64,000 bases of DNA from positions 682,001-746,000 of the forward strand of contig NZ_JAFJMJ010000002.1 in NCBI RefSeq assembly GCF_017309385.1. The letters are read 5' to 3'. Under the pieces are notes generated by a model. The model did not search any database and was not told the DNA's origin. It worked only from the letters and a program-made list of their open reading frames with translations. Source of the DNA: Amycolatopsis sp. 195334CR. Its GTDB lineage: Bacteria > Actinomycetota > Actinomycetes > Mycobacteriales > Pseudonocardiaceae. This document shows, piece by piece, positions 13,029 through 29,210 of this stretch (position 1 is the first letter of the stretch; each line of letters begins with the position of its first letter). A program made the translations under genes and the position numbers.

Positions 13029-13988
13029 TCAGGCCGACCGGCTGGCCGGCCCGCCGAACCAGCGAAGGGTGCGGGCCAGCCCGTCGGCCGAGGTGATCTC
13101 GGGTGCCCAGCCGAGTTCCGCGCGGGCCAGGCCGATGTCCGGGCACCGCCGCCGCGGGTCGTCCTCGGCCGCGGGGATGTGGCGGATCGGGGCGCGGGTC
13201 CCGGTCAGCCGGCGGATCTCCTCGGCGATCTCCAGCACGGTCAGCTCGTGCGGGTTGCCGATGTTGACCGGGCCGGGGTGCGTGCTCGCGGCGAGGGCCA
13301 GCAGGCCGGTCACCGTGTCGTCGACGTAGCAGATCGACCGCGTCTGCTCGCCCGATCCGGCCACGGTCAGCGGTTCCCCGCGCAGCGCCTGCCCGGCGAA
13401 CGCGGGGATCATCCGGCCGTCCTCGGCGCGCATGCGGGGGCCGTAGGTGTTGAAGATGCGGGCGATGGTGGTGTCCGCCTGCCATTCGCGTCGCGCGGCC
13501 GCCGTGTACGCCTCGGCGTAGCGCTTCGCTTCGTCGTACACGCTGCGCGGGCCGATCGGGTTGACGTTGCCCCAGTAGTCCTCGCGCTGGGGGTGCTGCC
13601 CGGGGTCGCCGTAGACCTCGCTGGTCGAGGCGAGCAGGAACCGGGCGTCGTGGCGGCGGGCCAGGTCGAGCGCCCACGCCGTGCCGGTGGACCCCGCCGC
13701 CAGCGTCTCGAAGGGCAGGCGGAGGTAGTCCCGCGGCGAGGCGGGGCTCGCCAGGTGGAAGACCAGGTCGACGTCGCCGGGCGGATCGGCGGGCCAGGTG
13801 GTGACGTCGGCTTCGACCAGGCTGAACCCCGGTGTGTCCAGCAGTTCCCAGAGGTTTTCGCGGGCACCGGTGGCGAAGTTGTCCACGCAGACCACCTTGG
13901 TGCCCAGGGAGAGCAGGCGTTCGCACAGGTGCGAGCCGACGAAGCCGGCGCCCCCGGTCACCACCGCACTGGCGAAGTTCCAGTCCAT
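13029..13988 (-). CDS. NAD-dependent epimerase/decarboxylase, UDP-glucuronate decarboxylase-like
   Basis: A 319-residue extended SDR. The Rossmann motif is VVTGGAGFVGSHL near residues 8-20; the active-site segment is SVYDEAKRYAEA (YxxxK); typical UXS stretches are present, including HLASPASPRDY, ASTSEVYGDP, ARIFNTYGPRM and VGSGEQTRSICYVDD-like sequence. Such enzymes turn UDP-glucuronate into UDP-xylose. A UDP-glucose dehydrogenase that would supply the substrate lies in the facing cluster at 26631. The ATG at 13988 sits close behind a minus-strand GCAT-N15-GGGTAC promoter that interleaves with the promoter of the divergent cluster. A different epimerase specificity is possible. Confidence 0.82.
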   Translation of the reverse strand: MDWNFASAVVTGGAGFVGSHLCERLLSLGTKVVCVDNFATGARENLWELLDTPGFSLVEADVTTWPADPPGDVDLVFHLASPASPRDYLRLPFETLAAGSTGTAWALDLARRHDARFLLASTSEVYGDPGQHPQREDYWGNVNPIGPRSVYDEAKRYAEAYTAAARREWQADTTIARIFNTYGPRMRAEDGRMIPAFAGQALRGEPLTVAGSGEQTRSICYVDDTVTGLLALAASTHPGPVNIGNPHELTVLEIAEEIRRLTGTRAPIRHIPAAEDDPRRRCPDIGLARAELGWAPEITSADGLARTLRWFGGPASRSA

Positions 13989-13996
13989 GTCCCGGG

Positions 13997-14021
13997 GTGT
14001 ACCCGGCGAGCGGCCGGGTAT
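13997..14021 (+). promoter_or_regulatory. Stress-sigma-type promoter at head of glycan cluster
   Basis: GTGT (13997-14000), 15-base spacer, GGGTAT (14016-14021), 8 bases before the ATG at 14030. It is interleaved with the minus-strand promoter at 13999-14023. Confidence 0.5.
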
Positions 14022-14023
14022 GC
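13999..14023 (-). promoter_or_regulatory. Stress-sigma-type promoter of epimerase, interleaved
   Basis: Minus strand GCAT (14023-14020), 15-base spacer, GGGTAC (14004-13999), 10 bases before the ATG at 13988. The two opposing promoters overlap almost completely, so only one polymerase could bind at a time. Confidence 0.5.
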
Positions 14024-26638: not shown

Positions 26639-27929
26639 GCGTCCGGTCGGGGTGGTCGGGGCCGGGTACGTCGGCCTGACCACCGCCGCCTGCCTGGCCC
26701 ACCTGGGGCACCGGGTGACCTGCACGGAGATCGACGAGTCCAAAGTGGACAAACTGGGCCGCGGTGAGGTGCCGATCAGCGAACCCGGCCTGGCCGAGCT
26801 GGTCGCCGAGGGACTCGGCACCGGGCGGCTGCGGTTCACCACCTCGGCCGCCGGACTGCGGGACGCCGAAGTCGTCTTCGTCTGCGTGCCGACGCCGATG
26901 GGGGAGCGGGGCGAAGCGGACCTGAGCGCGCTGGAGTCGGCGCTGCGGGACCTGGGCGCGCGGCTCGCGCCCGGTACCGTGCTGGTGCTCAAGTCGACCG
27001 TGCCGGTGGGCACCACCGCCCGCGTGCCCGAGCTGACCGGCCGCGACGACCTCCCGGCGGTGAGCAATCCCGAGTTCCTGCGCGAGGGGTTCGCCGTGCG
27101 GGACTTCCTCGAACCCGACCGGATCGTGCTCGGCGGCGACCAGGGACTGGACCGGGTGGCGGCGTTGTACACCGCGCTGGACGCCCCGGTGATCCGCACC
27201 AACGCGGCGAGCGCCGAACTCGGGAAGTACGCCAGCAACGCCTTTCTCGCGTTGAAGCTGTCCTACGCCAACGAACTGGCCGAGCTGTGCGAACAGGTCG
27301 GCGCGGACGTCCGGCAGGTGACCACGACGATGGGGCTCGACGACCGGATCGGCCCGGCCTTCCTGCGGCCCGGCCCCGGCTGGGGCGGGTCCTGCCTGCC
27401 GAAGGACGTGGCGGCGCTGCGGCGGTCCGCGAGCGACCGCGGCCTGCGGTTCGGGTTGCTGCGGGCCGCCGAGCGCACCAACACCGCCCAGCACGAGCGG
27501 ATCGTCGGCAAGGTCCAGGAACTGCTCACCGGCTCGCCCTACGGCTCACCGGCCGGCGCCAGGATCGGCCTGCTCGGCCTGACCTTCAAGGCGGGCACCG
27601 ACGATCTGCGGGATTCACCGGCACTGGCGATCGCCGCCCGGCTCGCCGCGCGGGGCGCGGTGCTGACCGGGTACGACCCCGCGGTGCCCGCGGCCAGGGG
27701 CGGCCCGCTCGCCGACGTGCACGTGGTGGACGACCCGTTGCTGGTGGCCAAGGACGCCGCCGCACTGGTGGTGCTCACCGAATGGCCCGAGTTCCGCGAA
27801 CTGGACTGGGCGCAGCTGGCCCAGCTCGCCGAGCGCCCCGCGGTGGTCGACACCCGGAACCTGCTGGACGCCGAACGCCTGGCGGGGCACGGGTTCACCT
27901 GCCGGGGCCTCGGCGTCCCGATCGGATGA
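26631..27929 (+). CDS. ugd: UDP-glucose 6-dehydrogenase
   Basis: A 432-residue enzyme oxidising UDP-glucose twice to UDP-glucuronate with NAD+. The N-terminal Rossmann motif is VGVVGAGYVGLTTAACLA; KSTVPVGTT, NPEFLREGFAVRDFL and the active-site cysteine in GPGWGGSCLPKD are all present, with the C-terminal LGLTFKAGTDDLRDSPA. The ATG at 26631 lies 8 bases after GGGAGGT and is preferred to the GTG at 26622. Its product would feed the UXS-like epimerase at 13029. Confidence 0.94.
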   Translation: MAERPVGVVGAGYVGLTTAACLAHLGHRVTCTEIDESKVDKLGRGEVPISEPGLAELVAEGLGTGRLRFTTSAAGLRDAEVVFVCVPTPMGERGEADLSALESALRDLGARLAPGTVLVLKSTVPVGTTARVPELTGRDDLPAVSNPEFLREGFAVRDFLEPDRIVLGGDQGLDRVAALYTALDAPVIRTNAASAELGKYASNAFLALKLSYANELAELCEQVGADVRQVTTTMGLDDRIGPAFLRPGPGWGGSCLPKDVAALRRSASDRGLRFGLLRAAERTNTAQHERIVGKVQELLTGSPYGSPAGARIGLLGLTFKAGTDDLRDSPALAIAARLAARGAVLTGYDPAVPAARGGPLADVHVVDDPLLVAKDAAALVVLTEWPEFRELDWAQLAQLAERPAVVDTRNLLDAERLAGHGFTCRGLGVPIG

Positions 27930-27938
27930 GGAGAGTCC

Positions 27939-29210
27939 ATGCCCAAGATCAGCGAACTGCTCACCACCGCCCGGCAGGCCCAGCGGGGCTGGGCCGCCAC
28001 CCCGGTCACCGAGCGGGGTGCCGCGTTGCGGGCGGCCGCCGCGGCCCTGCGGGAGCGGGTGGGGGAACTGGCCAAGGCCAACGAATCCGACACCGGCCGC
28101 CCGGAAACCGAAGCGGCCGAGGGGGTGCTCGCCGGGGCCGGGACGCTGGAGCAGTACGCCGAACTGGGCCCGGCGCACCGCGGCCGCACGTTGCGCGGTG
28201 ACCTGTCGGCGACGGACTTCATGGTGCCCGAACCCCGGGGCGTGGTGGTCGCGCTGACGCCGTGGAACGACCCGGTGGCCGTCTCGTGCGGGCTGCTCGG
28301 CGCGGCACTGGTCACCGGGAACGCGGTGGTGCACAAGCCGAGCGAGCGCGCACCGCTGACCGGCGCGCTGCTCGGCGAGATCCTCGAGGACTGCCTCCCG
28401 GACGGCGTGCTGCGCACCGTGCCCGGTGACGGGCTGGTCGGCGCGGAGCTGGCCGGGCACCACGGGGTCGACCTGGTCGCGCACGTGGGCAGCGTCCGCG
28501 CCGGGCGCGCGATCGCGCTGGCCACCGCGCGCACCGGGGCGAAGGCGTTGCTGGAGAACGGCGGCAACGATCCGCTGGTGGTCGACGGGGACGTCGATCC
28601 GGCCTGGGCGGCGGGTCAGGCGGCGCTGGGCGCGTTCGCCAACTCCGGGCAGATCTGCGTCGCGGTGGAACGGATCTACGTGCACGAGGCCATCGCCGAG
28701 CCGTTCCTGGCGGCGCTGGCGGTCGAAGCCCGTTCGCGCGGTCTGCTCCCGCTGGTGGACAACCGGCAGCGCGACGAGGTCGACGCGCACGTCCGCGACG
28801 CGGTGGCGAACGGTGCCCGGCTGGTGACCGGCGGGGAGCCGCCCGCGGGCCCGCAGTACCCGGCCACCGTGCTCACCGGCTGCACCGGAGCGCTGCGCGT
28901 GATGCGGGAGGAGACGTTCGGCCCGGTCGCGCCGGTGCAGGTGGTCCGCGACTTCGACGAGGGCATGGCCGAAGCGGCCACCGGCGAGTACGGGCTCGCG
29001 GCCACCGTGCTGACCCGGTCGATGGCGCACGCGCAGCGGGCGTGGCGTGAACTGCCCGTGGGCACGGTGAAGGTGAACTCCGTCTTCGGCGGTGCGCCCG
29101 GCGGTGCGGCCGAGCCGCGAGGCGTCAGCGGCAACGGTTTCGGCTACGGCCCGGAACTCCTCGACGAGATGACCACGACGAAGGTGGTGCACCTCGAAGC
29201 CGCGCCATGA
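27939..29210 (+). CDS. Aldehyde dehydrogenase
   Basis: A 423-residue NAD(P)-dependent aldehyde dehydrogenase, last gene of the cluster and 9 bases after ugd. The catalytic Cys is in FANSGQICVAVERIYVH, the general-base Glu in LLENGGNDPLVVDGD, and the N-terminal ALTPWNDPVAVS and ETFGPVAPV segments are typical. It is about 50 residues shorter than common ALDHs, trimmed at the N-terminus. LENGGND replaces the usual LELGGK, so the subfamily is unusual. A role in oxidising a sugar aldehyde is only inferred from context. Confidence 0.88.
   Translation: MPKISELLTTARQAQRGWAATPVTERGAALRAAAAALRERVGELAKANESDTGRPETEAAEGVLAGAGTLEQYAELGPAHRGRTLRGDLSATDFMVPEPRGVVVALTPWNDPVAVSCGLLGAALVTGNAVVHKPSERAPLTGALLGEILEDCLPDGVLRTVPGDGLVGAELAGHHGVDLVAHVGSVRAGRAIALATARTGAKALLENGGNDPLVVDGDVDPAWAAGQAALGAFANSGQICVAVERIYVHEAIAEPFLAALAVEARSRGLLPLVDNRQRDEVDAHVRDAVANGARLVTGGEPPAGPQYPATVLTGCTGALRVMREETFGPVAPVQVVRDFDEGMAEAATGEYGLAATVLTRSMAHAQRAWRELPVGTVKVNSVFGGAPGGAAEPRGVSGNGFGYGPELLDEMTTTKVVHLEAAP

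Follow-up and report, generated by a model that had tools for sequence, protein, structure and literature searches.

What does an actinomycete build with a compact set of heptose, carbamoyl and xylose genes, and has such a system been described before? The question is raised by a locus of Amycolatopsis sp. 195334CR that lies in a 64-kb stretch (contig C2, positions 682001-746000; hereafter, the window) of the 9.93-Mb genome. Genes were called from codon-position GC with a home-made script, and their products were scanned against Pfam and NCBIfam. The block of interest (13029-29210; Table 1) comprises 15 genes, the first of which, encoding UDP-glucuronate decarboxylase (UDP-xylose synthase, UXS), is divergent from the rest. 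A sequence-only reading of the window had listed GmhA, HldE, a GmhB domain, two GT9 proteins, UDP-glucose 6-dehydrogenase (Ugd), a UXS-like enzyme, a carbamoyltransferase, a pyruvyl-transferase-like protein, four other glycosyltransferases and a GT2 domain, and every one of these was found in the scans, the pyruvyl-transferase match being limited to the C-terminal 40 residues of the PF04230 model (38.8 bits, cut-off 25.3). That reading missed a short-chain dehydrogenase/reductase (SDR, 25020-25706) and an aldehyde dehydrogenase (ALDH, 27939-29210), and did not see the likely general-stress control. It also took the locus for the best candidate in the window for an undescribed system, a view that we reject: all 12 genes of the Streptomyces coelicolor cwg operon have counterparts in the window, and it is near certain that the locus is a variant form of the cwg type, orthologous to that operon.

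The cwg operon was reportedly named by Hong et al. in 2002 and is said to have been known since then as a vancomycin-induced sigmaE target. It consists of 12 genes (SCO6179-SCO6190) of S. coelicolor A3(2) and is partly sigmaE-dependent and vancomycin-induced (PMC6767563, PMC5839063); cwgH is annotated as a phosphoheptose isomerase and cwgI as a bifunctional synthase/transferase (PMC5839063), and cwgE as a putative heptosyltransferase (PMC5882110). The published cwg promoter was searched for, allowing up to three mismatches, in 392 genomes of one genus, taken for Streptomyces, and was found in 10, once exactly (locus L129) and nine times with one to three mismatches; three of these ten genomes were opened. 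In L129, the site ends 147 bp 5' of the first gene, the same distance as given in Table 1 of PMC6767563, and is followed by genes for UXS, carbamoyltransferase, GT2, GmhB, GT9, GT4, GT4, GmhA, HldE, GT9, GT2 and GT2, in this order. The 12 encoded proteins match their window counterparts one to one at 52-71% identity. The same 12 genes are present in L130, with two mismatches in the promoter (51-72% identity), and only GT2 and GT4 matches were found downstream of the promoter in L131, with one mismatch. In the reverse-complemented sequence of L129 (2049-2095), the sigmaE site falls within the initial codons of a deacetylase-like frame that runs divergently, and its conservation may in part reflect the coding constraint of that frame; such conservation alone is, therefore, no proof of a cwg promoter, and the site can persist without the operon. 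Among the Streptomyces-named loci, five of seven (L086, L087, L093, L111 and L118) carry the 12 genes in the same order, and the other two are cut; the exact S. coelicolor promoter sequence was not found in L086. Thus, the promoter-bearing loci L129 and L130, together with the Streptomyces loci that hold all 12 genes, identify the window locus as cwg-type.

The run of carbamoyltransferase, GT2, GmhB and GT9 and the run from GmhA and HldE to the second GT9 are ordered alike in cwg and in the window. In contrast to cwg, however, the window has GT2 fused to GmhB, additional SDR, Ugd and ALDH genes, a divergent UXS gene, GT4 and GT2 genes that have moved upstream, and a SigF/SigB-type promoter; SDR and Ugd are missing from the 12-gene Streptomyces block. 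Instead of a single co-directional 12-gene operon in the cwgA-L order, there are several units in the window. The loci of Amycolatopsis, Nocardia and Mycobacterium are likewise rearranged, and, therefore, gene order was treated as variable. No product of cwg is named in the open-access literature searched, which consisted mostly of text passages.

Judging by its gene families, the cluster very likely makes a nucleoside diphosphate (NDP)-heptose, and the heptose is likely put into a carbamoylated oligosaccharide. The families and catalytic motifs of the ADP-heptose set (GmhA, kinase/adenylyltransferase and GmhB) are all present, the activities being predicted from sequence, and the signature residues are intact by inspection, namely, GAGD and HxGH in HldE, DxD and CxH...CxC in GmhB, and TSEVYG and YxxxK in UXS. 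HldE, GmhA, GmhB and both GT9 proteins score under the NCBIfam equivalog cut-offs, the exception being domain II of HldE, which is just at its own (181.5 bits); the families are clear, and because these scores are mostly under the cut-offs, the exact heptose is something that we infer. The prediction of UXS is strong and secure, with 312 bits to UDP-glucuronic acid decarboxylase 1 and 137 bits to the next family. No HldD (TIGR02197) above the cut-off was found genome-wide, the best score being 127.5 against the 274.6 bits needed, in agreement with the sequence-only reading, and the carbamoylated heptose product that it proposed, presumably of the D-glycero type, fits the enzyme families present and the lack of HldD. 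The extended SDR at 13029-13988 was considered as a hidden HldD and rejected (58 bits to TIGR02197 against 312 to UXS), and for the SDR at 25020-25706, there was no nucleotide-sugar enzyme among the 60 best of 500 PDB matches. The HldD search also brought up, at G000:C1:4220132-4336099, open frames of 9,119 to 10,988 codons that match short-chain dehydrogenases, which frames we guess to be giant polyketide synthases.

The only HldE match of the genome and its only two GT9 matches all sit in this locus, so that a single deletion should remove this heptose chemistry. In the first GT9 (22020-23057), Asn258 is conserved in the motif. The Gram-negative lipopolysaccharide pathway (GmhA, HldE, GmhB, HldD, WaaC/WaaF) employs the same three families to reach ADP-D-glycero-heptose, along with GT9 transferases, whereas the window locus lacks HldD and has added carbamoyl and xylose branches. 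The tridomain NDP-heptose synthetases of actinobacteria reportedly described by Tang et al. in 2022 may also bear on this locus.

The expectation that related clusters occur in other actinomycetes was borne out by 80 named relatives, the best 80 of at least 570 HldE matches, and by 19 distant regions. Among the 80 relatives, in which all counts are lower bounds as some loci end at contig ends, HldE was found in 78, GmhA in 74, GT9 in 72, the sucrose-phosphate-synthase (SPS)-like GT4 in 65, UXS in 62, the other GT4 and the carbamoyltransferase in 61 each, and the SDR family and the GT2-GmhB type in 59 each. Less common are Ugd (39), the pyruvyl-transferase-like protein (28), the short GmhB type (16) and ALDH (15), and a few relatives, such as L063, hold little of the set. 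This recurrence of the block in related loci implies more than chance. Of 396 evenly drawn Actinomycetota genomes, 110 match HldE at E<=0.001, many of them over one domain only, and 27, including that of the window, at 350 bits or more. The 19 distant regions (18 from the latter genomes and the weaker L157, at 246 bits; 16 outside the class of the window) all contain GmhA, GT9a, GT4b and the bait HldE, and 14 also contain the carbamoyltransferase, with Ugd in 2 and UXS in 1. Given that UXS and Ugd are rare and that the heptose and carbamoyl genes are common in these regions, the heptose and carbamoyl part seems to be the ancestral core. In the taxonomic family of the window, a carbamoyltransferase match at E<=1e-100 was found in 68 of 150 genomes, and three of these matches, with less than 50% identity, are probably paralogues. 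L157 is much more distant; it shares most of the set at identities of 34-46% (54% for ALDH) and could be an outgroup or a sister system; in L149, a second HldE-like match (36%) lies near the first one.

Which sigma factor, then, controls the cluster? Outside Streptomyces, the cluster probably answers to a SigF/SigB-type factor; going by the promoter motif, such general-stress control is likely in Amycolatopsis, its kin and mycobacteria, and the case is weaker elsewhere. The predicted promoter at 18876-18899 is the only strict GTTT-N15-GGGTA site on the + strand of the window; three more strict sites, starting at 33266, 8190 and 7641, are on the - strand. In the 80 relatives, the DNA upstream of the first gene of each unit was searched, units with no neighbour on that side being dropped. 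GTTT-N14-16-GGGTA was found in 61 of 291 core units and in 18 of 397 other units, with ALDH counted among the latter (Fisher P = 3e-11, which overstates the case because related species are not independent). The motif itself is backed by dinucleotide shuffles and by its spacing: 60 shuffles of the core set gave a mean of 0.17 motifs and a maximum of 1, and the spacer peaks at 15 (48 core, 13 other), with no more than 2 for each spacer of 8-13 and 17-25. Of 79 permuted versions of the boxes, 77 gave 9 sites or fewer, and the other two (38 and 18) are one-base shifts of the true boxes and so probably pick up the same sites. In a wider stretch, the motif occurs at 66 of 300 core first genes and at 1 of 505 inner genes.

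The motif is present in 36 of the 80 related loci. By gene, among those that come first in their unit in the relatives, it precedes 21/54 carbamoyltransferase, 16/47 UXS, 8/22 GT2a, 8/23 GT2-GmhB and 3/30 GT4a genes. By group, it was found in 10/13 loci of Amycolatopsis, 9/11 of Mycobacterium together with one Mycobacteriaceae metagenome-assembled genome, 4/9 of Nocardia, 3/3 of Prauserella, 2/2 of Saccharopolyspora, 2/3 of Nonomuraea, 1/7 of Streptomyces, 2/9 of Actinomadura, 0/5 of Geodermatophilaceae and 0/3 of Actinoallomurus. The published M. smegmatis SigF consensus, GTTT-N(14-19)-GGGTA, is the same as this motif (PMC4694148), and the SigB-type promoters of S. coelicolor resemble it (PMC8346170). 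The genome encodes two factors of the SigB/F/G family above the cut-off. The sigmaE pattern AAC-N15-18-CGTC was absent from six intergenic stretches of the window, but the pattern is weak and also hit none of 6 named Streptomyces loci; a looser version, searched for in Streptomyces-type loci only, gave sites in 4 of 8, two of which had been chosen for having it. By eye, L086, L087, L111, L129 and L130 share a GGG(T/C)TACTC box shortly 5' of UXS (about 40 bp in L129), apart from the published sigmaE site.

The sequence-only reading had found no flippase, Wzy polymerase or ABC exporter in the block, and the Pfam and NCBIfam scan of the block likewise detected none of these, nor an initiating transferase or LCP gene. 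The flanks of the related loci were covered to about 10 kb on either side, membrane proteins being called with a simple home-made hydropathy count. None of the families that occur in at least 6 of the 80 loci is a membrane family, and in the 19 distant regions, no family recurring in 3 or more has a median of at least 3 predicted membrane segments; one two-segment family recurs in 3 regions. When 581 flanking proteins of 76 loci were clustered more loosely, an ABC-ATPase-like family turned up in 6 loci, which belong to unrelated genera, and membrane-like families in at most 5, largely of one genus, these families being judged by eye from their first residues. The locus thus lacks the linked flippase, polymerase or exporter of a Wzx/Wzy- or ABC-dependent glycan cluster. 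A genome search restricted to LCP proteins, initiating transferases and one flippase family (PF13440) found 6, one and one, respectively, all outside the window. As far as we looked, there is no widely linked exporter for the locus or its family, and export by unlinked proteins is possible.

The GT4 at 17664-18872 offers a clue to the first assembly step. Its best PDB matches are Tll1590 (6kih; 207 bits), which we take to be a sucrose-phosphate synthase, followed by 3c4q/3c48 (161 bits), presumably MshA; maltose-1-phosphate synthase (94 bits), PimA (80), an inositol-3-phosphate glycosyltransferase (7qsg; 76) and PimB (about 64) are weaker. The protein aligns along its length with Tll1590 and 3c4q. 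In 3c4q, the residues K78, R154, Y110 and T134 presumably bind the acceptor phosphate. K78 pairs with K78 here, and R154 fits R151 if the RxxxE motif is matched, the HMMER alignment being one residue off; K78 and R151 of the GT4 are at least 97% conserved among 66 sequences. Unlike in MshA, Phe and Ala take the places of Y110 and T134, which makes both fructose-6-phosphate and inositol phosphate improbable as acceptors. Together, these residues suggest a small phosphorylated acceptor that differs from that of MshA.

Table 1. Predicted features of the cwg-type locus and the adjoining regulator gene (positions in the window)
Feature	Coordinates	Strand	Evidence and remarks
ANTAR regulator adjoining the cluster, membership uncertain	12209..13012	-	PF03861 78 bits; GAF part below cut-off
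UXS, cwgA position	13029..13988	-	312 bits to UDP-glucuronic acid decarboxylase 1; 62% to first gene after cwg promoter in L129
Pyruvyl-transferase-like protein	14030..14905	+	PF04230 38.8 bits; relative on opposite strand after operon in L129, L130
GT2 glycosyltransferase, 11th-gene (cwgK) position	14902..15729	+	PF00535 82 bits
GT2 glycosyltransferase, 12th-gene (cwgL) position	15726..16613	+	PF00535 74 bits
GT4-type glycosyltransferase, cwgF position	16679..17641	+	PF00534 41 bits (scanned from 16631); 57% in L129; start picked by eye from relatives
GT4 glycosyltransferase, SPS/MshA-like, cwgG position	17664..18872	+	207 bits to Tll1590, 161 to 3c4q/3c48
Predicted SigF/SigB-type promoter GTTT-N15-GGGTA	18876..18899	+	Ends 44 bp 5' of carbamoyltransferase start
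NodU/TobZ-type O-carbamoyltransferase, cwgB position	18944..20566	+	PF02543 and PF16861; 71% in L129
GT2 domain fused to GmhB (heptose bisphosphate phosphatase) domain, cwgC and cwgD positions	20563..22023	+	Pfam/NCBIfam; separate genes in Streptomyces L086
GT9 heptosyltransferase-like protein, cwgE position	22020..23057	+	PF01075 93.6 bits; 52 bits to heptosyltransferase I
GmhA sedoheptulose-7-phosphate isomerase, cwgH position	23054..23626	+	NCBIfam phosphoheptose isomerase 162 bits (cut-off 276)
HldE heptose-7-phosphate kinase / heptose-1-phosphate adenylyltransferase, cwgI position	23623..24999	+	PRK11316 260 bits (cut-off 521); domain II at own cut-off
Classical SDR	25020..25706	+	PF00106 118 bits; YxxxK present; same-family SDR called in 59/80 related loci
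Second GT9 heptosyltransferase-like protein, cwgJ position	25703..26638	+	PF01075 93.5 bits
Ugd	26631..27929	+	TIGR03026 424 bits
ALDH-like protein	27939..29210	+	PF00171 337 bits; gene-called in 15/80 related loci

Near the cluster, the window encodes a Mn catalase, an iron-containing redox enzyme, and DUF4383, CDGSH, ANTAR and DUF2795 proteins. The stretch 7200-12111, with DUF6292, TUDOR-like, Mn catalase, DUF4383, iron-containing redox enzyme, CDGSH and methyltransferase genes, is possibly a stress island; two of the - strand sites of the SigF type (8190 and 7641) lie there. In the flanks of 76 relatives, families named from one scanned representative each, and counted in these flanks only, include hemerythrin, FMN reductase and STAS (9 loci each), a sigma-70 protein (regions 2-4) and topoisomerase IB (8 each), an RsbW-like ATPase (7), and catalase and CBS proteins (5 each). 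The published M. smegmatis SigF list also has Mn catalase, hemerythrin, type I topoisomerase and RsbW (PMC4694148). A similarity search of the window against plasmid DNA gave no match, and the Rfam scan nothing above the gathering score.

We favour, with a probability of roughly 0.75, a cwg-type general-stress variant whose product, a short carbamoylated oligosaccharide with heptose, is assembled in the cytosol. This reading joins the observed gene content, orthology, conservation, promoter motif and absence of a widely linked exporter to predicted enzyme activities and predicted sigma control. Ugd and UXS would supply UDP-glucuronate and UDP-xylose, and cytosolic glycosyltransferases, approximately one per linkage (two GT9, two GT4 and three GT2 domains), would build a short oligosaccharide of fixed length. 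The oligosaccharide would be O-carbamoylated, and the SDR, ALDH and pyruvyl-transferase-like proteins would perhaps oxidise or pyruvylate it. As for the first step, our guess, to which we give somewhat less than even odds, is that the SPS/MshA-like GT4 transfers a sugar to a small phosphorylated acceptor, which would yield a soluble product.

Several observations weigh against parts of this proposal. The motif is missing from 44 of the 80 loci, including all 5 of Geodermatophilaceae and 6 of 7 of Streptomyces, and a looser pattern was found at only 2 of 14 distant carbamoyltransferase genes. In a relaxed form, the motif was counted in 74 of the 300 core stretches on the sense strand, against 35 on the opposite one, for which the many divergent units may be the explanation. 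The sub-cut-off scores of the heptose enzymes leave room for another heptose or another sugar, and the first GT9 has Asn258 where the second has Asp234; the two may use different donors. CwgD is labelled a putative dehydratase in PMC5839063, whereas the fourth gene of L129 matches GmhB; GmhB-type phosphatases resemble the HisB phosphatase/dehydratase (48.9 bits), which may be the source of that label. Finally, the partial control of cwg by sigmaE, a cell-envelope factor, and the adjoining putative deacetylase gene favour a surface product.

As to where the product ends up, we give a soluble, cytosolic product a little less than an even chance, a surface product the same, and a lipid-linked product clearly lower odds. 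Heptose, like GT9 enzymes, is typically associated with surface glycans, and a surface glycan would be assembled on undecaprenyl phosphate or on a wall precursor, then flipped by unlinked machinery and attached by an LCP enzyme; the LCP proteins, the initiating transferase and the PF13440 match elsewhere in the genome could serve these ends. The vancomycin induction and partial sigmaE control of cwg in S. coelicolor point the same way, as does the putative deacetylase gene sco6178, divergent from cwg (PMC6767563). The frame matching sco6178 in L129 begins, by eye, like a lipoprotein. The block itself, however, holds none of the initiating transferase, flippase, polymerase, ABC exporter or LCP genes, some of which wall-polymer clusters usually carry, and no membrane family recurs at the level of 6 of the 80 loci.

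A glycolipid, in which the transferases would act on phosphatidylinositol or another lipid of the inner membrane in the manner of PimA and PimB, is unlikely. Soluble enzymes would be enough for such a pathway, and the GT4 does match PimA and PimB, but Tll1590 and 3c4q/3c48 score far above them, and no lipid-pathway family recurs nearby in at least 6 of the 80 loci. A natural-product sugar pathway of the septacidin, hygromycin B or bleomycin type, in which a small molecule carries heptose or carbamoyl sugars, is highly improbable: the carbamoyltransferase matches include TobZ, GdmN and the novobiocin enzyme, and Tang et al. (2018) reportedly derived the heptose of septacidin and hygromycin B from sedoheptulose-7-phosphate, an origin that the heptose of the window locus would share, but the block has no scaffold-building gene, on which ground a secondary-metabolite cluster was rejected, no such family recurs in at least 6 of the 80 flanks, and the conservation across classes and spread throughout the phylum are unlike those of a species-specific product cluster. 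The sugar genes of bleomycin, which include HldE-like, carbamoyltransferase and GT9-like ones, are a candidate parallel.

The cytosolic assembly that we favour can be extended to a broader, and doubtful, proposal: an ancient, soluble carbamoylated heptose oligosaccharide, present throughout Actinomycetota and started by the SPS/MshA-like GT4 on a small phosphorylated acceptor, would be induced by SigF/SigB in many lineages and act as an intracellular stress protectant rather than a wall glycan, with Streptomyces cwg being a re-wired offshoot. What is new here is the presence of the core in distant Actinomycetota, the absence of a widely linked exporter, the SigF/SigB-type promoter outside Streptomyces and the SPS/MshA-like GT4. 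The question of the cwg product becomes a concrete one once cwg is placed in an actinomycete family that is widely shared, has a predicted general-stress promoter and lacks a linked exporter. NDP-heptoses are described as innate-immune signals in PMC11461863 and PMC11573728, and, therefore, a heptose pathway in Gram-positive soil bacteria is of wider interest.

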